Origin: an uncultured Alphaproteobacteria bacterium
Lineage (GTDB): Bacteria > Pseudomonadota > Alphaproteobacteria > Geminicoccales > Geminicoccaceae
Assembly (NCBI GenBank): GCA_937995535.1
Contig: CALKJU010000005.1
Location: forward strand, 1 to 64,000
Direction of reading: 5' to 3'
Length of the DNA: 64,000 nucleotides
Both the position numbers and the translations under genes were made by a program. Under the pieces are notes generated by a model, which worked only from the letters and a program-made list of their open reading frames with translations, searched no databases and was not told the origin of the DNA. Of this stretch, positions 3,755 to 24,082 are shown piece by piece (position 1 is the first letter of the stretch; the number at the start of each line of letters is the position of its first letter).

Positions 3755-3768
3755 CTTGACCGCGATCA
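3755..3768. promoter_or_regulatory. Dnr/FNR-family binding box
   Basis: TTGACCGCGATCAA is a 14-bp near-palindrome of the FNR/DNR/NNR type (TTGAN-N4-NTCAA). It lies between the divergent cytochrome c (start 3694) and NO reductase operon (start 3832). Its centre is 70 bp from the plus-strand start codon and 67 bp from the minus-strand one, so it can drive both. The regulator encoded at 24152-24907 is the obvious candidate. Confidence 0.8.
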
Positions 3769-3831
3769 AGGCGGACAGGCCGCGGCCGGCCCAAGCATGG
3801 AGCCGTGCCTAGACCGACGGGAGCCGGACCC

Positions 3832-3996
3832 ATGGCCGAACCGACCGCCGCGCCGACCGCCCGCGAGCGGGTGCCGTTCATGCAGCGCCTGCTCGACAAT
3901 CCCTTCCTGCTCTTGTTCCTCGGCGTGACCTCCCCGGCGGTGTTGTACCTGCTGTGGGGCGTCATGGAGCTGAGCCAGATCCCGATCGCCCGCTAG
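3832..3996 (+). CDS. Small single-span membrane subunit of the NO reductase operon
   Basis: This 54-residue protein has one transmembrane helix (LLLFLGVTSPAVLYLLWGVM) after a short polar N-terminus. The ATG at 3832 is preceded by GGGAG at a suitable distance; a GTG at 3805 is possible but lacks a clear ribosome site. It ends 10 bases before the CuA subunit gene, and a strong AGGGAGG lies between them. Small single-helix subunits are common in heme-copper oxidase operons. I do not recognise a named family. It is the first gene after the Dnr box. Confidence 0.7.
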   Translation: MAEPTAAPTARERVPFMQRLLDNPFLLLFLGVTSPAVLYLLWGVMELSQIPIAR

Positions 3997-4006
3997 GGAG
4001 GACGCC

Positions 4007-4561
4007 ATGGCCATCCAGCCACCCGAGACACGGATCTGGTGGAACGAGCCGGTCGCCCGCGGCGAGCTCGTCTGGATCGTGATCGCGTTCCTCTGGGGCG
4101 TCATCATGTTCTTCATGATGATCTGGTGGCACCTGGAGGGCCGGCAGAACCTCTCGACGGAGGTCTACCGCATCGCCCCCGACGTGTTCGTCAGTCGCAC
4201 CGAGGCGTTCACCGAGACTTACCAGGTCGGCGAGGAAGGCGAGAGTGGCGTGCCGCTGGTCCGGCCGCCCCCCGGCAGCGATGTCTACCTGCTGGGGCGC
4301 CTGTGGGAGTGGTGGCCGGTGCTCGAGCTCGAGCGCGGCCAGACCTACCGCCTGCACCTGTCGTCGGCGGACTGGCAGCACGGCCTGTCGCTGCAACCCG
4401 TGAACATCAACGTGCAGGTCCACCCGGGAATCGAGCACGTGCTGACCATCACGCCGACGACGAGCGGGGTGTTCGGCATCGTCTGCAACGAGTTCTGCGG
4501 CGCCGGTCACCATCAGATGACCGGGCGCATCCGCGTCGTCGACGCGGCAGCGGGAGGCTGA
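4007..4561 (+). CDS. Heme-copper oxidoreductase subunit II with CuA site (alternative NO reductase)
   Basis: The 184-residue protein has an N-terminal membrane helix (about 20-42) followed by a periplasmic cupredoxin domain. All CuA ligands are visible: His125 in DWQHGL, then C160-NEF-C164-GAG-H168-HQ-M171, with Glu162 also in place. It therefore accepts electrons from a cytochrome c, unlike the cytochrome c subunit of classical cNOR. The preceding small gene and following subunit I gene are close and co-directional. The strong ribosome site AGGGAGG precedes the ATG. CuA is also found in terminal oxidases; the assignment to NO reduction rests on subunit I and the gene context. Confidence 0.9.
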   Translation: MAIQPPETRIWWNEPVARGELVWIVIAFLWGVIMFFMMIWWHLEGRQNLSTEVYRIAPDVFVSRTEAFTETYQVGEEGESGVPLVRPPPGSDVYLLGRLWEWWPVLELERGQTYRLHLSSADWQHGLSLQPVNINVQVHPGIEHVLTITPTTSGVFGIVCNEFCGAGHHQMTGRIRVVDAAAGG

Positions 4562-4564
4562 GCC

Positions 4565-6304
4565 ATGGCCACGAGCGCAGCCCAGGCGGGGATGATCGGC
4601 GCCCTCGCGGCGCGATTCCGCTCCTGCCCGGTGACCGGTCTGCAGATCGACCTCGCGGCGGAGCGCTTGATCAAGGCGAACGCGATCGCGGCGGTCGTCT
4701 TCCTGGCGATCGGCGGCGTCTTCGGCCTGCTCGTCGCGCTGACCCGCTGGCCGGCCGTACACCTCCTTTCCTCGGACATGTTCTACCTCGTGCTCACCGC
4801 GCACGGCCTCGACGTGCTGCTCTTGTGGATCATCTTCTTCGAAATTGCCGTCCTCTACTTCGCCTCGGCGATCCTGCTGAACAGCCGCCTCGCCGCGCCG
4901 CGCCTCGGCTGGGTCGCCTTCGCGCTGATGCTGATCGGCGGGCTGCTCACCAACGTCGCCGTGCTCCAGGGCGACTCCAGCGTGATGTTCACCTCCTATG
5001 TGCCGATGCAGGCGTCGCCGAACTTCTATCTCGGCCTGATCCTGTTCGCCGTCGGCGCCCTGATCGGCTGCTGCATCTTCCTCGGCACGCTGGTCATCGC
5101 CAAGGACGAGCAGACCTATGAGGGCTCGATCCCGCTCGTCACCTTCGGCGCGCTCACCGCCTGCATCATCGCCTTCTTCACCCTCGCCTCCGGCGCGGTG
5201 ATCCTGATTCCGACCTGGCTCTGGTCGCTCGGCTACATCAGCCACATCGACACGGTGATGTACAAGCTGGTGTGGTGGGGGATGGGCCACAGTTCGCAGC
5301 AGATCAACGTCTCGGCCCATGTCGCGATCTGGTACCTGATCGCTGCCGTCACGGTCGGCGCCAAGCCGCTCTCGGAGAAGGTCAGCCGCGGCGCGTTCCT
5401 GATGTACATCCTGTTCCTGCAGCTCGCCTCGGCGCACCACATGCTGGTCGAGCCCGGGCTGAGCTCCGAGTGGAAGGTGTTCAACACCTCCTACGCCATG
5501 TACCTCGCCGTGCTCGGCAGCATGATCCACGGCATGACCGTGCCGGGTGCCATCGAGGCGGCGCAGCGCAAGAACGGCTACGTCAACGGCGCCTTCGAAT
5601 GGCTGCGCAAGGCGCCGTGGAACAATCCGGCCTTCGCCGGAATGTTCCTGTCGCTGGTGCTGTTCGGCTTCCTCGGCGGCATCTCGGGGGTCGTGCTCGG
5701 CACCGAGCAGATCAACATCATGATGCACAACACGCTGTACGTACCCGGGCATTTCCACGCCACCGTGGTCACCGGCACGACGCTCGCCTTCATGGCCGTC
5801 ACCTACCTGGTGCTGCCGCTGATCTTCCAGCGCGAAGTGGCGTTCCCCAAGCTGGCCCGGATCCAGCCCTACCTGTTCGCGATCGGCGCCGGCGGGATCT
5901 CGCTGTTCATGATGGGTGCGGGGACCCTCGGCGTGTCACGCCGTCACTGGGACATCACCTTCAGCGACGCGACGCTCGCCTTCGACTACCCGGCCGCCGC
6001 CTTCCTGATGCTCGGGCTCAACGGGCTGTTCGCGATCCTCGCCACCGTCGGCGGTGCGCTCTACGTCATCATCGCCGTCTGGACGATCCTGTTCGGCCGC
6101 CGGGTGACCGCCGAGAACGCGCTCGCGGCGCTCGGGCCGATGCCACCGCGCCTGCAGGTGCACACCGCGGTGGCCGAGTACGGCAGCGCGGGAACCTGGC
6201 ACCTGCCCGGGACCTACATCCTGATCTCGGTCTTCTTCGTCAGCTTCGTGCTGTACTACTTCGTCAACTGGAAGTACCTCTCCGAGCTGTGGCCGATGGG
6301 CTGA
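4565..6304 (+). CDS. Heme-copper subunit I, eNOR-like NO reductase (Gln in place of cross-linked Tyr)
   Basis: This 579-residue, about 14-helix protein has the heme-copper ligand set. His80 (TAHGLD) and His398 bind the low-spin heme, His396 in GHFHAT binds the high-spin heme, and His242, His291 and His292 would bind CuB. The residue four after His242, which is Tyr in B- and A-type oxygen reductases (HxxxY), is Gln246 here (HSSQQ). Loss of that Tyr argues against O2 reduction. A Gln there, with a CuA subunit, fits the B-family-derived alternative NO reductases (eNOR and relatives). Co-location with nirS, nnrU, hemerythrin and a Dnr box supports the NO role. The exact subfamily needs a tree. 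Confidence 0.85.
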   Translation: MATSAAQAGMIGALAARFRSCPVTGLQIDLAAERLIKANAIAAVVFLAIGGVFGLLVALTRWPAVHLLSSDMFYLVLTAHGLDVLLLWIIFFEIAVLYFASAILLNSRLAAPRLGWVAFALMLIGGLLTNVAVLQGDSSVMFTSYVPMQASPNFYLGLILFAVGALIGCCIFLGTLVIAKDEQTYEGSIPLVTFGALTACIIAFFTLASGAVILIPTWLWSLGYISHIDTVMYKLVWWGMGHSSQQINVSAHVAIWYLIAAVTVGAKPLSEKVSRGAFLMYILFLQLASAHHMLVEPGLSSEWKVFNTSYAMYLAVLGSMIHGMTVPGAIEAAQRKNGYVNGAFEWLRKAPWNNPAFAGMFLSLVLFGFLGGISGVVLGTEQINIMMHNTLYVPGHFHATVVTGTTLAFMAVTYLVLPLIFQREVAFPKLARIQPYLFAIGAGGISLFMMGAGTLGVSRRHWDITFSDATLAFDYPAAAFLMLGLNGLFAILATVGGALYVIIAVWTILFGRRVTAENALAALGPMPPRLQVHTAVAEYGSAGTWHLPGTYILISVFFVSFVLYYFVNWKYLSELWPMG

Positions 6305-6316
6305 GGACCTCGACCC

Positions 6317-7192
6317 GTGACCACACGCGCCGCCACTTTTCTCGACGTCTTCAAGCCGCGGATCGGCATCGTCATCATGCTCGCCGCGCTCGGCGGGGTG
6401 GCGGTCAGTCCTGGTGCCCTCCCCGACACCTGGCGGATCGCCGCCGTGGCGCTCGCCGTGTTCGTCGCCTCGCTCAGCTCTGGTGCCTTCAACCAATGGG
6501 CCGAGCGTGACCTCGACGCGCGGATGCGGCGGACCGCGCGTCGGCCCTTCGCCAGCGGCCGCTACAAGGCGGGGCCCGGCTGGCTCGCGATCATCGCCGC
6601 GCTGCTCGCCGCTGCCGTGGCTCTCGCCGCGCTCGCCGGCAATGCCTGGGCGGCCCTCTACACCTTCCTCGGCGCGTTCACCTACGGTGTGATCTACACC
6701 TTGTGGCTGAAGCGGCGGAGCTGGACCAACATCGTCGTCGGCGGGCTCGCCGGCAGCTTCGCCGTGCTCGCCGGAGCCGCCGCGGTCGACCCGGCGCCGA
6801 GCGTCGCCCCGATCCTGCTGGCCGTCGTCCTGTTCCTGTGGACGCCGCCGCATTTCTGGAGCCTCGCCATGGCTGCCCGCGAGGACTATGCTCGCGCCGG
6901 CGTGCCGATGCTCCCGGTCGTCGCCGGTGACGCGACGTGCGCCAAGGTGATCCTCGCGCACACCGTGGCACTGTCGTTGGTCGCGCTGCTCCCCGCCCTC
7001 TACGGCATGGGTATGATCTATCTCGCGGCGGCGCTGGTCGGCGGCGCCTGGTTCACCCAGGCGAGCATCGCGCTGGTCCGCGAACCGTCGCGCGTCCAGG
7101 CGATGCGCACCTTCGGCGCCTCGCTGGCGCAACTGGCCCTCCTGCTCAGCGGTGCCATGCTCGACCGCTGGCTGCTCGGCGCGACTGCATGA
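6317..7192 (+). CDS. ctaB: Protoheme IX farnesyltransferase (heme O synthase)
   Basis: The 291-residue membrane protein is a UbiA-superfamily prenyltransferase that converts heme B to heme O. The first Asp-rich motif is clear in NQWAERDLDARMRRTARRP (about residues 57-75), followed by multiple membrane helices and PPHFWSLAMAAREDYARAGV, typical of CtaB/CyoE. It lies in the NO reductase operon, 12 bases after subunit I, and its stop overlaps the sco start (ATGA). This suggests that subunit I carries an O- or A-type heme, since no CtaA homologue is seen here. Confidence 0.93.
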   Translation: MTTRAATFLDVFKPRIGIVIMLAALGGVAVSPGALPDTWRIAAVALAVFVASLSSGAFNQWAERDLDARMRRTARRPFASGRYKAGPGWLAIIAALLAAAVALAALAGNAWAALYTFLGAFTYGVIYTLWLKRRSWTNIVVGGLAGSFAVLAGAAAVDPAPSVAPILLAVVLFLWTPPHFWSLAMAAREDYARAGVPMLPVVAGDATCAKVILAHTVALSLVALLPALYGMGMIYLAAALVGGAWFTQASIALVREPSRVQAMRTFGASLAQLALLLSGAMLDRWLLGATA

Positions 7193-7983
7193 GCCTGCGG
7201 TGGGTCGTCCTGCTCGCCGCGCTGCTGGTCTCGGCCGAACCGGCCGCGGCCCGCGCGCCGCTCAGCGAGGAAGAGGCCCTGGCCATCTCGGAGGCTGCGC
7301 TCGGCGGCACCCTGCCCGACCTGACGCTCGTCGACGACACGGGCCGCAGCGTCGCGCTCGCCGAGTTCCGTGACCGCCCGCTCCTCGTGAACCTGGTCTA
7401 CACCGGCTGCACGGACGTCTGCCCGACCATCGTCGCGAGTCTCCATCCGGCCGTGGAGGTGGCACAGGCGGCGCTCGGCCGGGACAGCTTCGCCGTGATC
7501 ACGGTCGGTTTCGACGCTCGCGGCGACAGCCCCAGCCGGATGCGCAGCTTCGCCCGGGCGCAGGGAGTGAGCCTGCCCAACTGGCATTTCCTCTCGGGCT
7601 CCGCCGAGACCGTCCAGGCTCTCAGCCGCGCCGTCGGCTTCACCTTCTACCCGTCGCCCGCCGGATTCGACCACATGGCCCAGGTGAGCGTCGTCGACGC
7701 GCAGGGCCGTGTCTACCAGCAGGTCTATGGCGGCGTGTTCGAGCCGCCGGCGATCGTCGAACCGCTCAAGGATCTGGTGCTGGGCCGCGAGCGCTCGATC
7801 TGGTCGGCGCAAGGACTGGTCGACCGCGTCCGCCTCATCTGCACGGTCTACAACCCCAACACCGGCCGGTACTATTTCAGCTACGCGATCTTCATCGGGA
7901 TCGCGGTCGGCGGTGCCAGCCTGCTCCTTGTCCTGGGCTTCCTGATCCACGAGTGGCGGCGCGCCCGACCCGGCCCGGCCTGA
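7189..7983 (+). CDS. SCO1/SenC copper chaperone with extra C-terminal membrane helix
   Basis: The 264-residue protein has a signal peptide (about 1-21), a thioredoxin-like SCO domain with the copper-binding CTDVC and the distal His in FDHMAQ, and then a C-terminal transmembrane helix (ISCO domain ends near 220, helix about 230-253). SCO proteins load CuA, so it should metallate the subunit II encoded at 4007-4561. Its ATG overlaps the ctaB stop and its own stop overlaps the next start, so translation is probably coupled. A C-terminal membrane anchor is less usual than the N-terminal anchor of most SCO proteins. Confidence 0.88.
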   Translation: MSLRWVVLLAALLVSAEPAAARAPLSEEEALAISEAALGGTLPDLTLVDDTGRSVALAEFRDRPLLVNLVYTGCTDVCPTIVASLHPAVEVAQAALGRDSFAVITVGFDARGDSPSRMRSFARAQGVSLPNWHFLSGSAETVQALSRAVGFTFYPSPAGFDHMAQVSVVDAQGRVYQQVYGGVFEPPAIVEPLKDLVLGRERSIWSAQGLVDRVRLICTVYNPNTGRYYFSYAIFIGIAVGGASLLLVLGFLIHEWRRARPGPA

Positions 7984-9545
7984 TGGATCACGCCCGTCGT
8001 CCGCTGCGCTGGCTGTTCGACCGCGCCGAGGCGGCGCTCGGCACGATCTTCCCGCCGGCGTGGAACCCGCTGGTCAATCTCGGCGCGCTCGGCTTCTTCT
8101 TCTATTGGATCATCACGGCGAGCGGGATCTACGTCTACATCTTCTTCGACACCGGCGTGCATCAAGCGTTCGACAGCGTCGAGTACATGACGCACGAGCA
8201 ATGGTACCTCGCCGGGGTCATGCGCAGCCTGCACCGCTACGCGTCGGACGGTCTCGTCGTGGTCATGCTGCTCCATCTGCTGCGCGAATGGTCGCTCGAC
8301 CGTTATCGCGGGGTGCGCTGGTTCAGCTGGATCATCGGCGTGCCGATCCTGGTGCTGGTCTACGTCGCCGGGATCACCGGCTACTGGCTGGTGTGGGACC
8401 GCCTCGCCCAGTACGTCGCCATCGTCTCCACCGAGTGGCTCGACCAGCTACCGTTCTTCGCCGAACCAGTGGCCCGCAACTTCCTCGCCCCCGACGCCCT
8501 CGAGAGCCGCTTCTTCACGCTGATGATCTTCATGCACATCGCCGTGCCGCTGATCACGCTGGTGCTGCTCTGGGTGCATCTGCAGCGGATCACCAAGCCG
8601 CGGATCAACCCGCCACGCGGCCTGATGGTCGGCGCGTTCCTCTCGCTCCTCGCGCTGTCGCTGGTCCATCCGGCGCTGAGCCAAGGTCCCGCCGACTTGG
8701 CACGGGTTCCGGGCACGCTGCAGCTCGACTGGTTCTATCTCGGCCTCTACCCGCTGCTCGAGCATCTGCCGGGGCCGCTCACCTGGGGCGCGGCGGCCAC
8801 CCTGCTGATCATCCTCTTGGCGATGCCCTGGCTGCCGCCCCTGCGCAAGCCGGCGGTGGCGCGGGTCGACCTCGGCAACTGCAACGGCTGCGCCCGCTGC
8901 GCCGCCGACTGCCCCTACGCCGCCATCGCCATGGTCGGGCGCAGCGACGGCCTGCCCTTCTCCGCTGAGGCCCAGGTCGACCCGAGCCTGTGCGTGGCAT
9001 GCGGCATCTGTGCCGGTGCCTGCCCGACCGCGATGCCGTTCCGCCGCGCCTCCGCCCTGGTGCCGGGGATCGATCTTCCGGAGCTCACCATCGCCGCTCT
9101 GCGCGAGGAGGTCGAGCGCGTCGGACGGGCGCTGCCGCGCGACGCGCCGCGCGTCCTGGTGTTCGGCTGCCGCCACGGCGTGCCGCTCGACGGTCTGCGC
9201 GGCGCCGTGGCGCTCGCCTGCACCGGCCAGCTGCCGCCGAGCTTCATCGACTACGTGCTGAGCAAGGATCTGGCCGAGGGCGTGCTCCTGACCGGCTGCC
9301 GCGAGGCAGCCTGCTACAACCGCTTCGGGATCGACTGGACCAAGGCGCGCCTCGCCGGCTCGCGCGATCCGCAGCTCCGCCGCCGCGTGCCGCGCGAGCG
9401 GGTCCGCACGATCTGGGCGGGGCGGCTCGGCGCCGCGCGCCTCGCCGCCGCCGTGGCCGAGTTCCAGCGGGACCTCGCTACCGCCGCCCCGCTCCCGCGC
9501 CCGGCGGCGCCGGCACCGCATCATCTCGCCGCGTCCGATGCGTGA
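7983..9545 (+). CDS. Diheme cytochrome b - 2x[4Fe-4S] ferredoxin - MvhD-like fusion
   Basis: The 520-residue protein joins three modules. Residues 1-290 are a cytochrome b/b6: His84 and His98 in one helix and His185 and His199 in another, each pair 14 apart as in bc1 complexes, plus GYWLVWDRLAQYV. A degenerate Qo-type motif LDWFYLGLYPLL stands where PEWY normally is. Residues 300-347 hold two ferredoxin motifs (C300, C303, C306, C310 and C337, C340, C343, C347). Residues about 380-500 resemble the MvhD/FlpD hydrogenase-delta domain (VFGCRHG, LACTGQL, TGCREAACYNRFG). No Rieske protein is encoded nearby. It sits inside the NO reductase operon, so it probably passes electrons between quinones and that pathway, but the direction is unknown. 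Confidence 0.85.
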   Translation: MDHARRPLRWLFDRAEAALGTIFPPAWNPLVNLGALGFFFYWIITASGIYVYIFFDTGVHQAFDSVEYMTHEQWYLAGVMRSLHRYASDGLVVVMLLHLLREWSLDRYRGVRWFSWIIGVPILVLVYVAGITGYWLVWDRLAQYVAIVSTEWLDQLPFFAEPVARNFLAPDALESRFFTLMIFMHIAVPLITLVLLWVHLQRITKPRINPPRGLMVGAFLSLLALSLVHPALSQGPADLARVPGTLQLDWFYLGLYPLLEHLPGPLTWGAAATLLIILLAMPWLPPLRKPAVARVDLGNCNGCARCAADCPYAAIAMVGRSDGLPFSAEAQVDPSLCVACGICAGACPTAMPFRRASALVPGIDLPELTIAALREEVERVGRALPRDAPRVLVFGCRHGVPLDGLRGAVALACTGQLPPSFIDYVLSKDLAEGVLLTGCREAACYNRFGIDWTKARLAGSRDPQLRRRVPRERVRTIWAGRLGAARLAAAVAEFQRDLATAAPLPRPAAPAPHHLAASDA

Positions 9546-10041
9546 GCCGCTGCGCTGGGCCGGCCAGACGGTCTTCTTCGTCGCCATCGCGGCGATGGTG
9601 GGCCTCTTCGCGAGCTGGCCGAGCTACCGCCAGTTCCCCGAGGATCAGGCGCAGATCAAGCTCAGCCTGAGCCACGGCGCGCAGCGGGTGGAAGCCTGCC
9701 GGAGGCTCTCGGCCGAGGAGATCGCCAAGCTGCCGCCCGCCGAGCGCCGCCCGAACACCTGTGCGCGCGAGCGGCTGCCGGTCCACGTCCAGCTCCTGGT
9801 TGACGGCGACCTGGTGTTCGACGAGGTGGTGGCACCGGGCGGCCTCGCCGGCGACGGCCCGGCCCGCATCTATCGCAAGCTCATCGTCGAGCCGGGGCAG
9901 CGGGAGCTGGTGGCGCGGCTCAAGGACAGTGACCGGCCGGGCGCGTTCGATTACGAGATGCGGGCGGAGGTGAGCTTGGCGCCGCAGCAGAGCCTGGCGG
10001 TCGATTTCCGCGCCGACGCCGGCGGCTTCGTGTTGCGCTAG
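9538..10041 (+). CDS. Membrane-anchored periplasmic protein of unknown function
   Basis: The 167-residue protein has an N-terminal membrane anchor (TVFFVAIAAMVGLFASW) and a periplasmic domain with two Cys (in VEACRRLS and NTCARERL) that could form a disulfide. The C-terminal half looks beta-rich (LLVDGDLVFDEVVAPGG, YRKLIVEPGQRELVARL). I do not recognise a family. It overlaps the cytochrome b fusion gene by 8 bases, so the two are probably translated together and may work together. Its location suggests an assembly or accessory role in NO reduction. Confidence 0.75.
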   Translation: MREPLRWAGQTVFFVAIAAMVGLFASWPSYRQFPEDQAQIKLSLSHGAQRVEACRRLSAEEIAKLPPAERRPNTCARERLPVHVQLLVDGDLVFDEVVAPGGLAGDGPARIYRKLIVEPGQRELVARLKDSDRPGAFDYEMRAEVSLAPQQSLAVDFRADAGGFVLR

Positions 10042-10052
10042 GAGCCTAGCCC

Positions 10053-10451
10053 TTGCCCCTGATCGAGTGGCGTCGCGAGTTCGAGACCGGGATCCCGGAC
10101 GTCGACCACGAGCATCGCGAGCTGGTCGACCTCATCAACGCGCTGCACGAGCGGCTCGGCGCGGATGCGGACCATGACGAGATCGCCCGCTTCCTGGGCG
10201 AGGTGTTCGCCCGCATCTCGGCCCACTTCGCGCTCGAGGAGACGATCATGCGCAAGCATCGCTACGACGAGTACGAGGTGCACAAGGCCGACCACGAGCG
10301 CCTCCTCGACGAGATCCGCGATATCATGGACGCGCACGAGGCCGGTTCCTACGCCGACTACCGGGGCGCGCTTGCCGGCGCCGTGCGCGACTGGTTCGTG
10401 AATCACTTCAAGACCCGCGATGCGCGCCTGCACCGGCGGCTGGGCGTCTGA
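10053..10451 (+). CDS. Bacteriohemerythrin
   Basis: The 132-residue protein is a single-domain hemerythrin that binds a diiron site able to bind O2 or NO. The ligand pattern is clear: VDHEHRELV, then HFALEETIMRKHRYDEY-VHKADHERL, then NHFKTRDARLH. The start appears to be TTG at 10053, preceded by GGAG eight bases upstream; no ATG precedes the conserved IEWRREFETGIPDVDHEH region. Within a NO reductase operon it may scavenge or deliver NO, or protect iron-sulfur centres, but this is inferred from context. Confidence 0.9.
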   Translation: MPLIEWRREFETGIPDVDHEHRELVDLINALHERLGADADHDEIARFLGEVFARISAHFALEETIMRKHRYDEYEVHKADHERLLDEIRDIMDAHEAGSYADYRGALAGAVRDWFVNHFKTRDARLHRRLGV

Positions 10452-13291: not shown

Positions 13292-14845
13292 TCAGTGGCT
13301 CGTGCCCGGGGAGCGGCTGATCTTGTTGCCGACATTGTACTTGCCGACCGGTTTGACCATCGGCAGCCGCTTGACCACCGCGAAGGTGGCGGTGTCGTAG
13401 ACGACCAGCTCGCCGTCCATCTCGGAGACCGAGACGAGCGCGAACCGCCCGTCGCGCGTCAGCTCGACATGGCCGGTGATCTTGCCCGGTGCCGGCTGCA
13501 ATGTCGCCACCAGCTCGAGCGTGCGGGTGTCGAGGATCTGGAGCTTGTCCTTCTCGGGGCCGAGTGAGACATCGATCCAGGCGTAGGGGCTCGCCTCGTG
13601 GCCGCGGATGAAGAAGCCCGGTCCGAGCGTCGCGACCCGCTCGACCACCTGCCAGCTCTTCAGGTCGATCACGCTGAGCGCGGCCTCGCCGAGATGCGGC
13701 GTCGCGAGCACCGGCCTGCCCTGCCAACTGAAGGCGATGCCCGAGCCGAGATGCGGCAGGCCCGGGAGCGGCAGCTCGGCGATCTCGCGACGCACATCGA
13801 GGTTGACGACGACGCCCTTGCCGCCGTCGCGGCTGGAACCGATCAGGTTGGTGTAGGTCGGGTCGAAGAAGAAATCGTCGAGCGGCGCCGTCAGGGGGAT
13901 GCGCCGGACCGGGAACGGGCTCGTTTCGGCCAGCCCTTCGACCATCCCCGGCTCGTAGTTGTGGACGAGGCCGGCGAACACCGCCGGCGGCTCGGGCGCG
14001 TAGGAGACCTCCCAGATCTCCGGCAGGTCCTTGAGTGCCAGGATGAAGCTCCGGCGCGGCGCGGCCTGATAGACGGCGCTGACCCGCGAGGTCCGTTTGT
14101 GGAACGGATCGTCCACGGTCTTGACCTCGAGCGGCGCCAGCGTGGCGGCGTCGAGGATCACGAGGCTGTGTGGCAGATAGTTGGCCACCGCAATCACCCG
14201 GCCGTCGTCGGAGATGGCGATGTTGCGGCTGTTGATCCCGGCGCGGACCTCAGCGACCGGCTGCAAGCTCCACAGATCGTAGCGGGTCACCCAGCCGTCC
14301 CGCGACATCAGGTGGACGAAGCGCCCGTCGGGACTGAACTTGGGCCCGCCGTGGAGCGCGAAGTGCGTCGGGAAGCGGGCCAGCGGCTCGAACCGGTCGC
14401 CGTCGAGAATGGTGACGTGCTGGTCGCCGGCCTCGACCACGACGAACAGGTTCAGTGGATCGGTGTGCCACTGCGGCCGGTCCGGCAGCGCCTCCGGCGC
14501 CACGAGCACGACCCGCGACGCCTCGATCTCCTCGACCCCCCAGCGTGGCATCTCAGCCAGCGGGGTGCGCACCAACTCGGCCAGCGCCGCGATCTCGGCT
14601 TCGTCGAGCCGATCGGCGAAGCCGGGCATCTGCGTCGCCGGCCGGCCGTCACGAATCACGGCCTCGAGCGCCGGGGGCTTGAGCCGGCCGAGGCTCTCAG
14701 GGAGCAGCGCCGGGCCCATCCGGCCAAGACGGTCCTCGCCGTGGCAGGAGGCGCAATGCTCGCGGTACAGCTCCGGCGCCGGCATCGCCGAGGCCGGCGC
14801 CGCCAGCGCCATGAGCAGGGCGAGGCTAGGCCACCGCGCGGGCAT
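13292..14845 (-). CDS. nirN: NirN, dihydro-heme d1 dehydrogenase (cytochrome c / d1 domain)
   Basis: The 517-residue precursor has a signal peptide (ending near PASA), a cytochrome c domain with CASCH (C31, C34, H35) and a heme d1-type beta-propeller. NirN performs the last step of heme d1 synthesis in the periplasm. It is distinguished from NirS by its divergent propeller and by the C-terminus GKYNVGNK in place of the NirS GKFNVYNT. It overlaps nirJ by 20 bases and is followed by the chelatase gene. Confidence 0.88.
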   Translation of the reverse strand: MPARWPSLALLMALAAPASAMPAPELYREHCASCHGEDRLGRMGPALLPESLGRLKPPALEAVIRDGRPATQMPGFADRLDEAEIAALAELVRTPLAEMPRWGVEEIEASRVVLVAPEALPDRPQWHTDPLNLFVVVEAGDQHVTILDGDRFEPLARFPTHFALHGGPKFSPDGRFVHLMSRDGWVTRYDLWSLQPVAEVRAGINSRNIAISDDGRVIAVANYLPHSLVILDAATLAPLEVKTVDDPFHKRTSRVSAVYQAAPRRSFILALKDLPEIWEVSYAPEPPAVFAGLVHNYEPGMVEGLAETSPFPVRRIPLTAPLDDFFFDPTYTNLIGSSRDGGKGVVVNLDVRREIAELPLPGLPHLGSGIAFSWQGRPVLATPHLGEAALSVIDLKSWQVVERVATLGPGFFIRGHEASPYAWIDVSLGPEKDKLQILDTRTLELVATLQPAPGKITGHVELTRDGRFALVSVSEMDGELVVYDTATFAVVKRLPMVKPVGKYNVGNKISRSPGTSH

Positions 14846-15989
14846 CGCCGGCCTCCAGCCCGAGCTCGGCGTCGGTCAGATAGCAGGCGGGGTCCTCGGC
14901 CCAGGGATCGCCGTGGATGCGCATCGCCCGCACGCGCGTGTTGCCGCCGCAAATCGCCCGCTCGGGACAGATGCCGCAGCGACCGCCGAGCAGGCGCGGC
15001 CGCCGCTTGAGGCCGGCCATGATCGGGTCGCTGACGTCCGCCCAGATCTCGCCGAACGGCCGCCTGCGCACGTTGCCCAGCGAATAGTGCCACCAGAAGG
15101 TGTCGGGGTGGACCTCGCCGAGATTGTCGATGTTGGCGACGTTCACCCCGCTGGCGTTGCCGCCCCAGGCCTCGAGCTTGGCGCGCAGATGCGCCGCCCG
15201 CTCCGGGAAGCGCCGCTCGACCCAGCGCAGTAGATAGACGCCGTCGGCGTCGTTGTTACCGGTCACGAACTCGGTGGCATGTCCCGCGCGGAGATGCGCC
15301 CAGCAGCGCTCGAAAAGCAGGTCCATCACAGCCCGGGTGGTGCGGTGATGCGCGTCGGCGTCACGGTAGCGGTCGCCGCGGCCGGAATAGACCAGATGCG
15401 ACAGGTAGAACTTGTCGAGCTGCTCGGCCTCGAGCAGATCGAGCATCGCGGGCAGGCTCTCGACGTTGCGCTCGGTGACGGTGAAGCGCAGGCCGACCTT
15501 GATCCCGCGCGCGCGGCAGTGGCGGATCCCGGCCAGCGAGGCGGCAAAGGCGCCGGGGACGCGGCGGAAGCGGTCGTGCACCGCGCCGATCCCGTCGAGG
15601 CTGACGCCGACATAGTCATAGCCGACGGCGGCGATGCGGTCGGCCATCGGCTCGTCGATCAGCGCGCCGTTGGTCGACAGGCCGACGTAGAAGCCGAGCG
15701 CCTTGGCGCGGCTGGAGACGGCGAAGATGTCCGGGCGCAGGAGCGGCTCGCCGCCGGAAAGGATCAGCACCGGCACGCGCGCCGCCTTGAGGTCGTCCAT
15801 CACCCGGAAGACCTCCGCGGTGGTCAGCTCGCCCGGAAAATCGACGTCGGTGGACAGCGAGTAGCAGTGGATGCAGTTGAGATTGCAGCGGCGGATCAGG
15901 TTCCAGATCACCACCGGCCCGGGCGGCTGCGCCCGGCGCACCGGGCTCGGCGCGATCAGTTCACGCATGAACTGGCTCAGACGGAACAT
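14826..15989 (-). CDS. nirJ: NirJ, radical SAM heme d1 biosynthesis protein
   Basis: The 387-residue protein carries the radical-SAM cluster motif CNLNCIHC (C35, C39, C42), the SAM-binding LSGGEPLLRPD, and a C-terminal SPASM-like Cys cluster (CGICPERAICGGN, then CYL). NirJ replaces propionate side chains of the heme d1 precursor with keto groups. Start choice: the ATG at 15989 gives the family N-terminus MFRLSQFMRELI; longer frames upstream are antisense noise. It lies between nirH and nirN in the nir operon. Confidence 0.93.
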   Translation of the reverse strand: MFRLSQFMRELIAPSPVRRAQPPGPVVIWNLIRRCNLNCIHCYSLSTDVDFPGELTTAEVFRVMDDLKAARVPVLILSGGEPLLRPDIFAVSSRAKALGFYVGLSTNGALIDEPMADRIAAVGYDYVGVSLDGIGAVHDRFRRVPGAFAASLAGIRHCRARGIKVGLRFTVTERNVESLPAMLDLLEAEQLDKFYLSHLVYSGRGDRYRDADAHHRTTRAVMDLLFERCWAHLRAGHATEFVTGNNDADGVYLLRWVERRFPERAAHLRAKLEAWGGNASGVNVANIDNLGEVHPDTFWWHYSLGNVRRRPFGEIWADVSDPIMAGLKRRPRLLGGRCGICPERAICGGNTRVRAMRIHGDPWAEDPACYLTDAELGLEAGDARAVA

Positions 15990-15996
15990 GCTCGCC

Positions 15997-16485
15997 TCAC
16001 CCGCCCAGCCGGAGGCCGGTCTTCTTGAGGATCGCGGTGCTGTAGAGGACCTCGTGTGCGCGACAGGCGGGCCCGAGGAGCGCCGCGATGCGCGCCACCT
16101 CGGCCTCGACCTCGTCGCGGCTATGGCCGTGGACCATGGCGAAGAGGTTGTACGGCCAGTCCGGCGGCCGACGGGGCCGGCGGTAGCAGTGGCTGACGCT
16201 CGGCAGGGCGCCCACGGCCGGCCCGAGCTCGGCCAGGCGCGCATCCTCGACGTCCCACACACTCATCCCGTTGGCCGTGTAGCCCAGCGCATAGTGATTG
16301 GGCACGGCGGCGATGCGGCGGATCACGCCGCGCTCCAGCATCCGCCGCATGCGCTCCATGACGTCGGTGGCGGCGAGGCCGAGCTGCTCGGCCACGACCT
16401 GGTAGGGCTCGCGACAGAGCGGCAGCCCGGCCTGCGTGGCGCGGACGATCGCGCGATCGGTCGCGTCGAGGGCCGAGGCGGTCAT
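15997..16485 (-). CDS. nirH: NirH, siroheme decarboxylase subunit (AsnC/Lrp-like)
   Basis: The 162-residue protein has an N-terminal winged helix-turn-helix-like part and a C-terminal AsnC-like fold containing CYRRPRRPPDWPYNLF, the signature of the AhbB/NirL/NirH type. The nirDLGH proteins together decarboxylate siroheme to didecarboxysiroheme. The assignment to nirH rests on order and size in the run D-L-G-H (152, 163, 148, 162 residues), which copies the Pseudomonas arrangement. Its start overlaps the nirG stop (ATGA). Confidence 0.85.
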   Translation of the reverse strand: MTASALDATDRAIVRATQAGLPLCREPYQVVAEQLGLAATDVMERMRRMLERGVIRRIAAVPNHYALGYTANGMSVWDVEDARLAELGPAVGALPSVSHCYRRPRRPPDWPYNLFAMVHGHSRDEVEAEVARIAALLGPACRAHEVLYSTAILKKTGLRLGG

Positions 16486-16928
16486 GCCTGCAGCCTCAGC
16501 GCGAGGAAGTACTCCTCGAGCTTCGGCAGGTCGAGCACCGGCAGGCCGGTCGCCGCCTCGATGCGGGCGATGGTCGCCGCAATGGCCGCGGGCCGCTCCG
16601 TGGCCAGCACGAACCACATGTTGAAGCGATGCGCGCGGCGGTAGTTGTGCGCGACCTCGGGAAAAGCGTTGACCGTCTCCGTGACCGCGGCGAAGCGCTC
16701 CTCCGGGACGGCCATGGCGCACAGGGTGAAGGCACCGCCCAACGCCTCGGCGTCGTACATCGGGCCGAAGCGACTGAGCACACCGTCCTCGCGCAGCCGC
16801 GTGACCGTCGCGATCAGTTCGTCCTCGCCCATCCCGAGCTTCGGCGCCACAGCGGCGAACGGCCGGGCGACGATCGGGAACCCAGTCTGGAGGACGTCGA
16901 TCACACGCCGGTCGGTGTCGCTCAGCAT
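16482..16928 (-). CDS. nirG: NirG, siroheme decarboxylase subunit (AsnC/Lrp-like)
   Basis: The 148-residue protein has the short AhbA/NirD/NirG form, with HNYRRAHRFNMWFV (about residues 93-106) in the AsnC-like domain and LSDTDRRVIDVLQTGFP at the N-terminus. It acts with NirD, NirL and NirH on siroheme in heme d1 synthesis. Its start overlaps the end of nirL by 7 bases and its stop overlaps nirH. The four-gene split, rather than fused nirDL, is kept here. Confidence 0.85.
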   Translation of the reverse strand: MLSDTDRRVIDVLQTGFPIVARPFAAVAPKLGMGEDELIATVTRLREDGVLSRFGPMYDAEALGGAFTLCAMAVPEERFAAVTETVNAFPEVAHNYRRAHRFNMWFVLATERPAAIAATIARIEAATGLPVLDLPKLEEYFLALRLQA

Positions 16929-17413
16929 GGCAGCAGCGGCGCGTCGTAGCGGGCACCGCGCTGCTTGAACCGGCGCCGGCTGAACAGGACCGCGCGCGGC
17001 AGGCCCTGCAGATTCGCGGCCGCCGTCGCCTGCTCGATCTGCGCCAGCACCACCCTGCGGTCGCGGCCGTGGACCATGCAGAAAAGGTTGTACGGCCAGA
17101 CCGGCGGGCGGCGCGGCCGGCGGTAGCAGAGTGTCACCCAGTCGAGCGCGCCGAGCCGAGCGCCCGCCGCAGCGACCTGCCCGTCGGGGACATCCCAGAC
17201 GACCATCGCATTGGCCACGTAGCCGAGCTCGTGGTGGCGCACGACGACGCCCAGGCGCTTGATCACGCCGGTGCTGAGCAGGCGGCGCAGCCGCTCCAGC
17301 ACCTCACCCTCGGCCATCCCGAGCTCGGCGCCGAGGGCGGCGTAGGGCCTCATGACCAGCGGCAGGCCCCGGGCGACGGCCGCGACCAAAGCTCGATCGG
17401 CCTCGGCCAGCAT
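16922..17413 (-). CDS. nirL: NirL, siroheme decarboxylase subunit (AsnC/Lrp-like)
   Basis: The 163-residue protein shows the long-form signature CYRRPRRPPVWPYNLF, nearly identical to that in NirH, which points to an old gene duplication. The N-terminus MLAEADRALVAAVARGLPLV matches the family. It is the AhbB-like partner for the NirD-type subunit. Its ATG overlaps the nirD stop. The name is assigned by position (second of four) and size; swapping L and H cannot be fully excluded. Confidence 0.83.
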   Translation of the reverse strand: MLAEADRALVAAVARGLPLVMRPYAALGAELGMAEGEVLERLRRLLSTGVIKRLGVVVRHHELGYVANAMVVWDVPDGQVAAAGARLGALDWVTLCYRRPRRPPVWPYNLFCMVHGRDRRVVLAQIEQATAAANLQGLPRAVLFSRRRFKQRGARYDAPLLPC

Positions 17414-17871
17414 CACGACAGCGGGAACCCGAGATCGAGGCGGAACGCCTCCACCAAGGGCAGGTCGATGACCGCGAGCCCGGTGCGGTACTCGATCTCG
17501 CGCAGGACCTGATCGACGCGCCACGCACTCGGCGCGGTGACCACGAACCACAGGTTCAGGCGATGCTCGCGCTCGTAATTGTGATTGACCTCCTCGAAGC
17601 CGCTGACGAACTCGGCGACGGCCGGCAGGATCTCCGCCGGGACCTGCATCGCCGCCAGCGTGCTCCAGCCGGCCCGGTGCGGCGCCACGACGGCGCCGAC
17701 GCGAGAGACGACGCCGAGCTCGCTGAGCCGCCGCAGACCCTCCAGAACGTCCTCCTCCTCGACGCCAAGCCGGGCGGCGAGGGCCGCGAAGGGCCGCGGC
17801 TCGAGCGGCAGGTCGCGCTGGCACTCGTCGACCAGCCGACGCTCGAGGGGTGCCAGGGCCAGCGCCGTCAT
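17413..17871 (-). CDS. nirD: NirD, siroheme decarboxylase subunit (AsnC/Lrp-like)
   Basis: The 152-residue protein is the first of four related subunits and has the short-form motif HNYEREHRLNLWFV. The first half (LERRLVDECQRDLPLEPRPF) is a winged-helix-like domain, which explains frequent misannotation as a transcription regulator. It overlaps nirF by four bases upstream and nirL downstream, so the block is translationally coupled. Function: siroheme decarboxylation for heme d1. Confidence 0.85.
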   Translation of the reverse strand: MTALALAPLERRLVDECQRDLPLEPRPFAALAARLGVEEEDVLEGLRRLSELGVVSRVGAVVAPHRAGWSTLAAMQVPAEILPAVAEFVSGFEEVNHNYEREHRLNLWFVVTAPSAWRVDQVLREIEYRTGLAVIDLPLVEAFRLDLGFPLS

Positions 17872-19037
17872 TGGCCGATCCGGTTGGCGCGCGCGGCGAG
17901 GAAGATCCCCGACGGCTTGTGCGCGGGGATGGTCGCGATCCGGGCGAGGCTCCAGGGGTCCAGCACGATGACGGCGTCGTCGTCGCGGGCCGAGAGCCAG
18001 AGCTGCTCGCCGCGCGGGGTGAATTCCATGTGCAGCACGGCTCGGCCCGGCTCCAGGGTGGCGATCACCGCGCGCGACGGCACGTCGATCACTTGCACCA
18101 CCCCGTTGGTCGGGTGGGCGAAGTTGACCCACACTTGGCGCCCGTCCGGCCGGGCCACAGCGAACACGGGCTGGCCGGCCACCGGGATGCGCGCGACTTC
18201 CGCCCAGCGCCGCCGGTCGACGACCAGCAGCTCGTGCCGGCCGACCGCGGGCAGGAACAGCTCGTCGCCGGCGGCAGCCCAGCCACCGAGATGCGGCATC
18301 TTGAAGACCGGCAACGGCTCCTCGCCGCGGCCATAACCGTCGAGGATCCGCCGCGGGCCGGCGTCGGGGTCCCAAAGGTCGACCAGCGCGACCCCGTCCT
18401 CGCCGAACAGCCCCGCCAGATAGAAGCGCCCGTCCGCGGTGATGTTGCCGTCGTAGGGCAGCCGGCCGACGTTCGGGTAGCGGCGGAGCGCCGGCCGCGC
18501 CGGATCGTCGAACCGACCGACCCAGATCTCGCCTGCGTCGTAGAGCGACCAGGCGAAGCCGCGCCCGGGGATGTCGACGAGGCCCACGGTCTTCGACAGG
18601 CGGCCGTCGTCGGCCCAGCGCGCCGGCACGTCGCCGACCTGCTGCAAGGTGCCGGCGTCGAACAGCCGCACGCCACCCGGTTCGTAGTTTGACACCGCGA
18701 TCAGCCGGCCGTCGTCGCTGATGGCCCCACCGATGGCGTTGCCTGCCTGGACCACCCGCCGGGTCAGGCGCTGCTCGAGCAGGTCGACCTTCGAGAGCGC
18801 GCCGTCGCGACCGAACACGTAGGCATGGCGCCCGTCGCGGCCGAACACGACCGAGGCATGGCTCAGATCGCCCAGCCCCTCGACCCGGCCGAGCGCGGTC
18901 CGTCCCGTGGTCTCGACCACGAGCAGCGAGCCCGTCGCCCGCTCGACGACGACACCGAGATCGCCCGTTCCACGCAGCTCGCCCGCACTGGCCGCCCAGG
19001 ACAAGAGAACGGCGAGGACGAGCAGGAGCGCCCTCAC
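17868..19037 (-). CDS. nirF: NirF, heme d1 biosynthesis protein
   Basis: The 389-residue protein has a signal peptide (MRALLLVLAVLLSWAASA) and an eight-bladed d1-type propeller related to NirS but without the cytochrome c domain. Typical segments are ISDDGRLIAVSNYEPGGVRLFD, LPYDGNITADGRFYLAGLFGEDG and FKMPHLGGWAAAGDELFLPAVG. Start: GTG at 19037 overlapping the nirC stop (GTGA), which gives the signal peptide directly. NirF acts in the periplasm on a late heme d1 precursor. It lies between nirC and nirD. Confidence 0.9.
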   Translation of the reverse strand: MRALLLVLAVLLSWAASAGELRGTGDLGVVVERATGSLLVVETTGRTALGRVEGLGDLSHASVVFGRDGRHAYVFGRDGALSKVDLLEQRLTRRVVQAGNAIGGAISDDGRLIAVSNYEPGGVRLFDAGTLQQVGDVPARWADDGRLSKTVGLVDIPGRGFAWSLYDAGEIWVGRFDDPARPALRRYPNVGRLPYDGNITADGRFYLAGLFGEDGVALVDLWDPDAGPRRILDGYGRGEEPLPVFKMPHLGGWAAAGDELFLPAVGRHELLVVDRRRWAEVARIPVAGQPVFAVARPDGRQVWVNFAHPTNGVVQVIDVPSRAVIATLEPGRAVLHMEFTPRGEQLWLSARDDDAVIVLDPWSLARIATIPAHKPSGIFLAARANRIGQ

Positions 19038-19354
19038 GGCACGTCTCCCTGCTTCAGGCGGGCCGCCAGCCACACCGCATCCTCGTCGGAGAGTTCGCTC
19101 TTCCAGGGCGGCATCGGCGTGCCGTGGACACCTTCGAGGATGACCAGGGCGATGATCGCCACGTCCTTGCCGTCGAGATCGGCCGGCAGCAATGGTGGGC
19201 CGAGCCCACCCTTGCGCGTCAGTCCGTGGCACGAGCCGCAGTCCTGCTCGAGCAGGTGGAGCAGCTCGGCCTGACGGGCCGCGGGCGGCTCCGCCGCAGC
19301 GGCGAGCGCCGGCCCGAGGACCAGCGCGATCGCCAGCGCCGCCGTCCTAGCCAT
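19034..19354 (-). CDS. nirC: NirC, monoheme cytochrome c
   Basis: The 106-residue precursor has a signal peptide ending near ALAAA, one heme site CGSCH (C39, C42, H43) and a probable Met81 ligand in GTPMPPW. NirC accepts electrons in heme d1 maturation and can donate to NirS. Its start lies inside the end of nirE (8-base overlap) and its stop overlaps the GTG of nirF. The size is normal for the family. Confidence 0.88.
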   Translation of the reverse strand: MARTAALAIALVLGPALAAAAEPPAARQAELLHLLEQDCGSCHGLTRKGGLGPPLLPADLDGKDVAIIALVILEGVHGTPMPPWKSELSDEDAVWLAARLKQGDVP

Positions 19355-20129
19355 GGCCCGCGACCTCGAACAGCCGCGGGTCGATCGGCAGCACGCCGAC
19401 CAGTTCCGCCTCGTGGTCGACGACGTCGACGACCCGGCCGATGACGTAGAGCGTCGGCCGTCCCCCCGTCGGAACCGCGGCGACACCGTCGAGCGCGCAG
19501 CGCACGACCCGTTGCGCCGGGCTGCAGCCGTCGCTGATCACCGCCACCGGCGTGGTCGGCGACAGGCCGTGCCCGATCAGCCGGTCGGCGATCTCACCGA
19601 TCTGCGCCGTGCCCATGTAGACGACGAGCGTCGTCTCCGGGTCGGCCAGCCCTTCCCAGTCGAGCTCGAGCGCCTCGTCACCCCGGCAGTGGCCGGTCAC
19701 GAACCGCACCGAGCGGGCGAGGCCGCGGTGGGTGAGCGGGATGCCGACGCTCGCGGCGCAACCCAACGCCGCCGTGATCCCGGGCACGACCTCGACCCGG
19801 ATGCCGTGGCGAAGCAGGTGCACCGCCTCCTCCCCGCCACGGCCGAAGACGAACGGATCGCCGCCCTTGAGACGGACGACGACCCGGTCGGGAGCGGCCA
19901 GCTCGACCAGCAGCTCGTTGATCTGCTGCTGGGCCATGGCGTGCCGCCCGGCGGCCTTGCCGACGTCGATCCGCCGGGCGCGCGGGTTGGCCAGCTCCAG
20001 CACTCCCTGCCCGACCAGCCGGTCGTGCACGAGCACGTCGGCGAGCTGGAGGAGCCGGGCGGCGCGCAGCGTGAGCAGGTCCGGATCGCCCGGACCGGCG
20101 CCCACAAGGTGCACGAGCGGTGGCTGCAT
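19347..20129 (-). CDS. nirE: NirE, uroporphyrinogen-III C-methyltransferase
   Basis: The 260-residue enzyme methylates uroporphyrinogen III twice to give precorrin-2, the entry step to heme d1. It shows the SUMT signatures VGAGPGDPDLLTLRAARLL at the N-terminus, VRLKGGDPFVFGRGGEE and PGITAALGCAASVGIPLTHR, and VVYMGTAQ for SAM binding. There is no CysG-type dehydrogenase/ferrochelatase domain. A GGGGGAG ribosome site precedes the ATG. It lies directly after nirS, an order different from the Pseudomonas operon where nirE is near the end. Confidence 0.93.
   Translation of the reverse strand: MQPPLVHLVGAGPGDPDLLTLRAARLLQLADVLVHDRLVGQGVLELANPRARRIDVGKAAGRHAMAQQQINELLVELAAPDRVVVRLKGGDPFVFGRGGEEAVHLLRHGIRVEVVPGITAALGCAASVGIPLTHRGLARSVRFVTGHCRGDEALELDWEGLADPETTLVVYMGTAQIGEIADRLIGHGLSPTTPVAVISDGCSPAQRVVRCALDGVAAVPTGGRPTLYVIGRVVDVVDHEAELVGVLPIDPRLFEVAGHG

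Positions 20130-20150: not shown

Positions 20151-24082
<3,932 letters not shown>

Follow-up and report, generated by a model that had tools for sequence, protein, structure and literature searches.

A cytochrome b–ferredoxin–MvhD fusion protein inherited with eNOR across Proteobacteria

The Operon and Its Heme-Copper Enzyme

In the window analyzed here (the whole stretch of DNA, 64 kb of contig C5 from an uncultured alphaproteobacterium), the genes of a heme-copper enzyme stand in an operon with cyoE, sco, a gene for a 520-residue fusion of cytochrome b, ferredoxin, and MvhD domains, a gene for a 167-residue protein, and a hemerythrin gene. The features are as follows.

3756..3769, plus strand: FNR/DNR-type box TTGACCGCGATCAA, one mismatch to TTGATN4ATCAA, 62 bases ahead of the operon's first gene
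3832..3996, plus strand: 54-residue protein with a single transmembrane helix, probable small eNOR subunit (similar small open reading frames elsewhere)
4007..4561, plus strand: eNOR subunit II, CuA cupredoxin (PF00116 just below the cut-off)
4565..6304, plus strand: eNOR subunit I, with Gln246 for the active-site Tyr (PF00115, 218 bits)
6317..7192, plus strand: cyoE, heme o synthase (PF01040, 172 bits)
7189..7983, plus strand: sco, copper chaperone (PF02630)
7983..9545, plus strand: cytochrome b–2x[4Fe-4S]–MvhD fusion, 520 residues (open frame, Pfam, AlphaFold2, family profile)
8052..8591, plus strand: cytochrome b N-terminal domain of the fusion, His84/98 and His185/199 (PF00033 at residues 24–203; Foldseek)
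8724..8735, plus strand: LDWF at the PEWY position of the fusion, Asp249–Trp250 invariant (homologue alignment)
8856..9032, plus strand: two [4Fe-4S] motifs of the fusion, ferredoxin of HdrA2/QmoB type (Fer4 at residues 292–350, NF040770, QmoB-like match)
9144..9515, plus strand: MvhD/FlpD domain of the fusion, Cys396, 413, 439, and 444 (PF02662 at residues 409–498; family profile)
9538..10041, plus strand: 167-residue putative partner, N-terminal transmembrane helix and Ig-like beta domain, with His46, Cys54, and Cys75 (alignment, AlphaFold2)
10053..10451, plus strand: bacteriohemerythrin (NF033749 above its cut-off)

The start of the fusion gene abuts sco and its end is overlapped by 8 bases by the gene for the 167-residue protein, the arrangement given in a preliminary description of this DNA (flanked by sco, overlapping a gene for a periplasmic protein). 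Small open reading frames resembling the 54-residue protein precede subunit II in other loci, those of Thermus and Thermomicrobium included, and an FNR/DNR box with zero or one mismatch lies upstream of subunit II in 22 of 67 loci, compared with 9 of 1340 shuffles. A Defluviimonas plasmid bears the same operon as the window. Elsewhere the window holds nirS, nnrU, and further heme d1 genes. A NosR/NirI-type protein (FMN_bind, Fer4_5; 22046–24082) is encoded divergently from nirS (20154–22178), with a Crp/Fnr regulator downstream, and a minus-strand heme d1 biosynthesis set (13295–20129) comprises two cytochrome d1-type proteins, a radical SAM nirJ, nirE/cobA, and, judged by eye, nirD/L/G/H-like regulators.

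Aligned with ba3 oxidase, subunit I places Q246 (H242+4) where the oxidase has Y237 (H233+4), and Q246 is present in all 73 loci sequences covering the site, with the Thermus and Thermomicrobium sequences also carrying Gln. The heme and CuB ligands (H80, H242, H291, H292, H396, and H398) occur in every sequence that covers them. Subunit II matches the CoxB and NosZ CuA domain models of NCBIfam, and its CuA motif, CNEFCGAGHHQM, was read from the sequence. In the excerpts available of the papers concerned, Gln replacing the cross-linked Tyr is the criterion for eNOR (PMC8756737), an already known enzyme (PMC8756737, PMC8879329, PMC4653789) described as a ba3-a1 type heme-copper NO reductase (Hemp and Gennis, 2008, as cited in PMC8756737; PMC8879329), and sco within the operon has been noted for the ba3-a1 type (PMC6431628). 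Because Gln occupies this position in all of the covering sequences, the window's enzyme is taken to be eNOR, a putative NO reductase, which it also resembles in its CuA subunit II and in the presence of sco in the operon. The operon differs from the eNOR of those excerpts in containing the fusion and the Ig-like protein, neither of which they mention. A further heme-copper subunit I in the window's genome (G000:C63:7169-8479, L207) reads GHVFIN, with Asn where oxygen reductases carry the cross-linked Tyr, and may be another non-canonical NO reductase.

Architecture and Invariant Residues of the Fusion

The frame and coordinates of the fusion (7983–9545) had been given correctly; a GTG at 7953 is a possible longer start, with homology beginning at about residue 5 of the version that starts at ATG 7983. 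The four-His diheme cytochrome b proposed in the preliminary description holds, as PF00033 scores 67 bits and His84, His98, His185, and His199, together with Asp249, Trp250, and all eight ferredoxin cysteines, are invariant among the fusion homologues (n = 82). The four MvhD cysteines are kept in all but one of these, the exception having Gly at C439. LDWF had also been put forward as the counterpart of PEWY at Asp249, and it does align, weakly (E about 0.006), with the part of b6f subunit IV that holds PEWY; PEWY itself is absent, LDWF or close variants standing in 82 of 82 homologues with the acid and Trp alone retained. Selenocysteine at in-frame TGA or TAA codons of several homologues was considered and rejected, these being normal C-terminal stops that the alignment had read through.

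A domain search, the check proposed at the outset, found cytochrome b, Fer4, and FlpD, and a C-terminus of unrelated family was not borne out. FlpD (PF02662) scores 37.1 bits in the Pfam search against a curated cut-off of 22.3, and lies above the cut-off in 52 of 52 genomes searched. A family profile built from 64 relatives and run against solved structures matches MvhD over its full length (residues 388–511 to 6–136, E 9e-12), the ferredoxin domain of HdrA, and cytochrome b of the b6 and bc1 types, so that the claim of two [4Fe-4S] motifs and an MvhD/FlpD-like domain stands. An AlphaFold2 model built from the family alignment (pLDDT 88) has bc1 cytochrome b as its best Foldseek matches, and the best NCBIfam matches of the front half are cytochrome b6 and the b-type cytochrome ExtP, a likeness that scores 104 bits, under the ExtP cut-off of 290. 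Positions 568–770 of the HdrA2 model NF040770 match residues 289–500 of the fusion, and a QmoB-like protein aligns with its C-terminal half (27% identity, E 3e-13); by these alignments the ferredoxin and MvhD regions together resemble the tail of HdrA2 and that of a QmoB-like protein. The cytochrome b fold, positive loop charges, and helix count suggest that this iron-sulfur half is cytoplasmic, and the invariant di-heme sites and Qo-like acidic DW motif are consistent with a putative quinone linkage. A comparison of the fusion with eNOR subunit I showed no homology.

The fusion can be compared with several known systems. It resembles the cytochrome b of bc1 and b6f complexes in its four His, their X13 spacing, the cd and ef regions, and the acid and Trp at the PEWY site, but differs in reading LDWF, in missing helices G and H, and in bearing a predicted cytoplasmic Fe-S tail. 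As in the C-terminal module of HdrA2, QmoB, and MvhD, a four-Cys MvhD domain comes after two [4Fe-4S] motifs; unlike those proteins, the fusion has no flavin domain and is joined to cytochrome b. The Qmo complex (QmoABC) couples quinone and heme b to an MvhD-containing soluble module, and the fusion similarly combines a heme b and putative quinone side with such a module, but as a single chain without FAD subunits and with another cytochrome b family. Moreover, the fusion is tied to NO reduction and Qmo to APS reductase.

Distribution and Co-occurrence With eNOR

Two draws of genomes gave the full-length fusion in 19 of 289 and in 33 of 299, and relatives are encoded by 561 candidate stretches of GTDB genomes; the fusion is therefore not a chance assembly. 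One cultured, non-pathogenic carrier is Roseovarius amoyensis (L113). In the class draw of 289 genomes, 18 encode both the fusion and eNOR, 1 the fusion without eNOR, 0 eNOR without the fusion, and 270 neither, the corresponding counts for the phylum draw of 299 being 28, 5, 1, and 265. Fisher p values of about 1e-27 (289 genomes) and 4e-33 (299 genomes) are descriptive only, because relatedness is ignored and the draws overlap. The preliminary description had linked the fusion to a Gln-type NO reductase and proposed a survey of genomes; eNOR is present in 18 of 19 and 28 of 33 fusion carriers, so homologues occur mostly with NO reductase rather than in genomes lacking it. As to the exceptions, in G276 (fusion without eNOR) a 9.8-kb contig bears the fusion close to its end, the MAG being 86% complete, and in G346 (eNOR without fusion) the contig stops just past sco. 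The five fusion-only genomes of the 299 draw are incomplete or contaminated MAGs, and four of their loci are on short contigs or near a contig end on the expected eNOR side, the fifth being that of G408.

Across the 81 loci read (80 from GTDB genomes and one plasmid), the order SUII-SUI-cyoE-sco-fusion-167-residue protein-hemerythrin recurs in nearly all; subunit I is present in 75, the 167-residue protein gene in 79, and hemerythrin in 76, with absences mostly at contig ends. Divergence of the fusion and of subunit I is correlated (r = 0.82), which plain joint inheritance predicts likewise. Synteny by itself could yield co-occurrence, and the fusion might then be a passenger, carried along by a long-lived operon but not interacting functionally with eNOR. 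We consider this quite unlikely, since the co-occurrence persists where the fusion and eNOR are on separate contigs or far apart on one, and the ligands are near-perfectly conserved across deep divergence. In family f180 the fusion and the 167-residue protein gene often lie apart from eNOR, three times near a nirS-like gene, with both systems still in the genome, and the two remain together even where unlinked from eNOR. The fusion is inherited together with eNOR across Proteobacteria.

Two further arrangements were observed. In L184, L186, and L197, where the fusion and its Ig-like partner are away from eNOR, a nirS-like gene (identified by eye from a product with cytochrome c and d1-type parts) lies within a few kilobases. 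Lineage f171 (L189, L194) has a tandem pair of cytochrome b-Fd-MvhD genes; after them comes a distant heme-copper-like subunit I sharing about 25% identity with its eNOR counterpart.

The link has limits. Thermus and Thermomicrobium, whose eNOR subunit I is 45–48% identical, showed no fusion in a search that covered their eNOR loci and their plasmids; the Ig-like partner is likewise missing at those loci. On Thermus thermophilus plasmids (L120, L122) the eNOR subunits are labelled cytochrome oxidase and stand beside Rrf2 and DUF542 genes, with nitrite reductase-type genes nearby. Cytochrome c1 of the bc1 complex is encoded in 32 of 32 good-quality carrier genomes, which rules out the fusion as a bc1 replacement. 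Given the Thermus and Thermomicrobium loci without it and c1 in all 32 carriers, the fusion is neither generally required for eNOR nor a substitute for bc1, and the dependence of NO reduction on the fusion that had been suggested is weakened.

Candidate Partners on Both Sides of the Membrane

A Rieske gene had been reported missing nearby, and none was found in the window; three Rieske matches in the same genome lie on other contigs (C13, C16, and C29), with c1 on C29. No Rieske or c1/f partner gene stands beside the fusion locus, a further difference from bc1 and b6f. The 167-residue protein, modeled with high confidence (pLDDT 94.4), gave no significant match in a PDB fold search and none in Pfam or NCBIfam, and it is probably the fusion's periplasmic partner. 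It was rejected as a Rieske substitute, having just one invariant His and two Cys; both Cys are lost jointly in lineage f171, and this joint loss makes a disulfide more likely than a cofactor.

These features bear on whether quinol could be bifurcated at LDWF, one electron passing to the CuA of eNOR or cytochrome c and the other to bL, bH, the Fe-S clusters, and a cytoplasmic acceptor. The invariant Asp-Trp at the PEWY position, the conservation of both heme sites, and the co-inheritance of a high-potential acceptor would suit such a reaction. We nevertheless hold it to be very unlikely, as a Rieske or cytochrome c1 partner is missing from the locus and the periplasmic protein has no cofactor motif, its Cys pair behaving like a disulfide. 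Most unlikely of all is its extension to a Rieske-free, quinone-based bifurcating module serving eNOR or cytochrome c and an MvhD-docked acceptor, with NO respiration driving cytoplasmic reduction; if true, bifurcation of this kind would join the Q-cycle and the flavin-based type as a third arrangement.

On the cytoplasmic side, HdrA was rejected as the docking partner of MvhD. Of the systems with which MvhD/FlpD is associated (HdrA, hydrogenase, and formate dehydrogenase), HdrA was the one searched for. Of 16 alphaproteobacterial carriers, 13 have no HdrA core, and the genome of the window is one of these, so that the usual partner of MvhD is absent in most and the fusion differs from HdrA-linked MvhD. 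No FlpD besides the fusion was found in alphaproteobacterial carriers, G044 excepted; the second FlpD gene of G324, a carrier outside that group, encodes an HdrA-FlpD, QmoB-like protein. Genes for FAD-binding QmoA/QmoB were found neither in the window operon nor among recurrent neighbors. The co-encoded bacteriohemerythrin is one putative acceptor, with quinol electrons then passing through the MvhD tail to cytoplasmic NO detoxification. This fits the predicted cytoplasmic tail and the frequency of the hemerythrin gene in the loci, and Thermus eNOR clusters hold a DUF542 protein instead; but no hemerythrin was found near unlinked fusion copies (the window's hemerythrin being the only query) and we know of no MvhD domain that reduces hemerythrins, leaving this reading unlikely.

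Proposed Function

The fusion is very probably a missing electron-transfer or activation part of eNOR. With slightly less than even confidence, we favor a role as the dedicated quinone-reactive transmembrane electron adaptor of the proteobacterial eNOR system. We hypothesize that a cytoplasmic reductase would dock on the MvhD domain and pass electrons first to the [2Fe-2S] cluster of that domain, then along the pair of [4Fe-4S] clusters, and on to hemes bH and bL. Their next stop would be quinone, bound at the Qo-like LDWF motif, or else directly the periplasmic side, where the 167-residue Ig-like protein would act as a docking or assembly partner. The result would be more electron supply or better redox poise for eNOR, beside the bc1–cytochrome c route. 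Reverse flow, from quinol to the cytoplasm, appears less likely. HdrA2/QmoB and MvhD domains pass electrons, and the adaptor role draws support from homology to them, from the near-invariant redox ligands and cytochrome b fold, from the conserved operon, the co-occurrence in both draws, and the pairing with the partner when unlinked, and from the conserved FNR/DNR box and the nir genes of the window. Against it, no cytoplasmic donor gene travels with the fusion, the HdrA core is lacking in most alphaproteobacterial carriers tested, the Thermus and Thermomicrobium eNOR loci do without the fusion, and bc1 in all good-quality carriers implies that a donor route to eNOR exists already.

The main rival is an activation or assembly role, possible though doubtful in our judgment, like that of NosR for N2O reductase or CcoG for cbb3 oxidase. 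On this view the fusion would stand apart from bulk respiration and would move electrons from the cytoplasm to the far side of the membrane, where they would reduce copper or Sco or hold the eNOR metals in active form. NosR/NirI and CcoG are membrane Fe-S proteins each tied to one copper or heme reductase, as the fusion appears to be; unlike NosR/NirI, it lacks FMN_bind and Fer4_5, both present in the protein at 22046–24082, and has a cytochrome b core instead. Activation would explain the place of the fusion after sco and its dispensability in other phyla: it directly follows cyoE and sco and precedes a small membrane-anchored Ig-like protein, an order that we take to resemble ccoGHIS, and non-proteobacterial eNOR manages without it, with bc1 always present in carriers. 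A NosR-type protein also adjoins nirS in the window. However, the Qo-like Asp-Trp and two heme b sites exceed the needs of a simple reductase, and in some genomes the fusion is away from cyoE and sco.

Implications

The MvhD/ferredoxin type of tail is known from enzymes of methanogens and sulfate reducers. In acetogens, a link of MvhD to membranes and cytochrome b has been discussed, as separate proteins (PMC9430772). With eNOR, sco in its operon, and MvhD near cytochrome b as separate proteins already known, the fusion itself may be new, there being no description of a cytochrome b-Fd-MvhD fusion in the literature searched, which did not include the main eNOR characterization (Murali et al., PNAS).

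The product of eNOR is N2O, a greenhouse gas, and energy conservation by the enzyme has been proposed; we know of no account of how it is supplied with electrons or assembled in Proteobacteria. The present analysis names a conserved, testable protein pair for proteobacterial eNOR and finds an HdrA/Qmo-type module, with a putative electron role, in a denitrification setting. In databases such systems go under the names of cytochrome oxidase and "cytochrome b N-terminal domain" protein, and the cytochrome b-Fd-MvhD gene with its Ig-like partner provides a genetic marker by which proteobacterial eNOR systems may be found.
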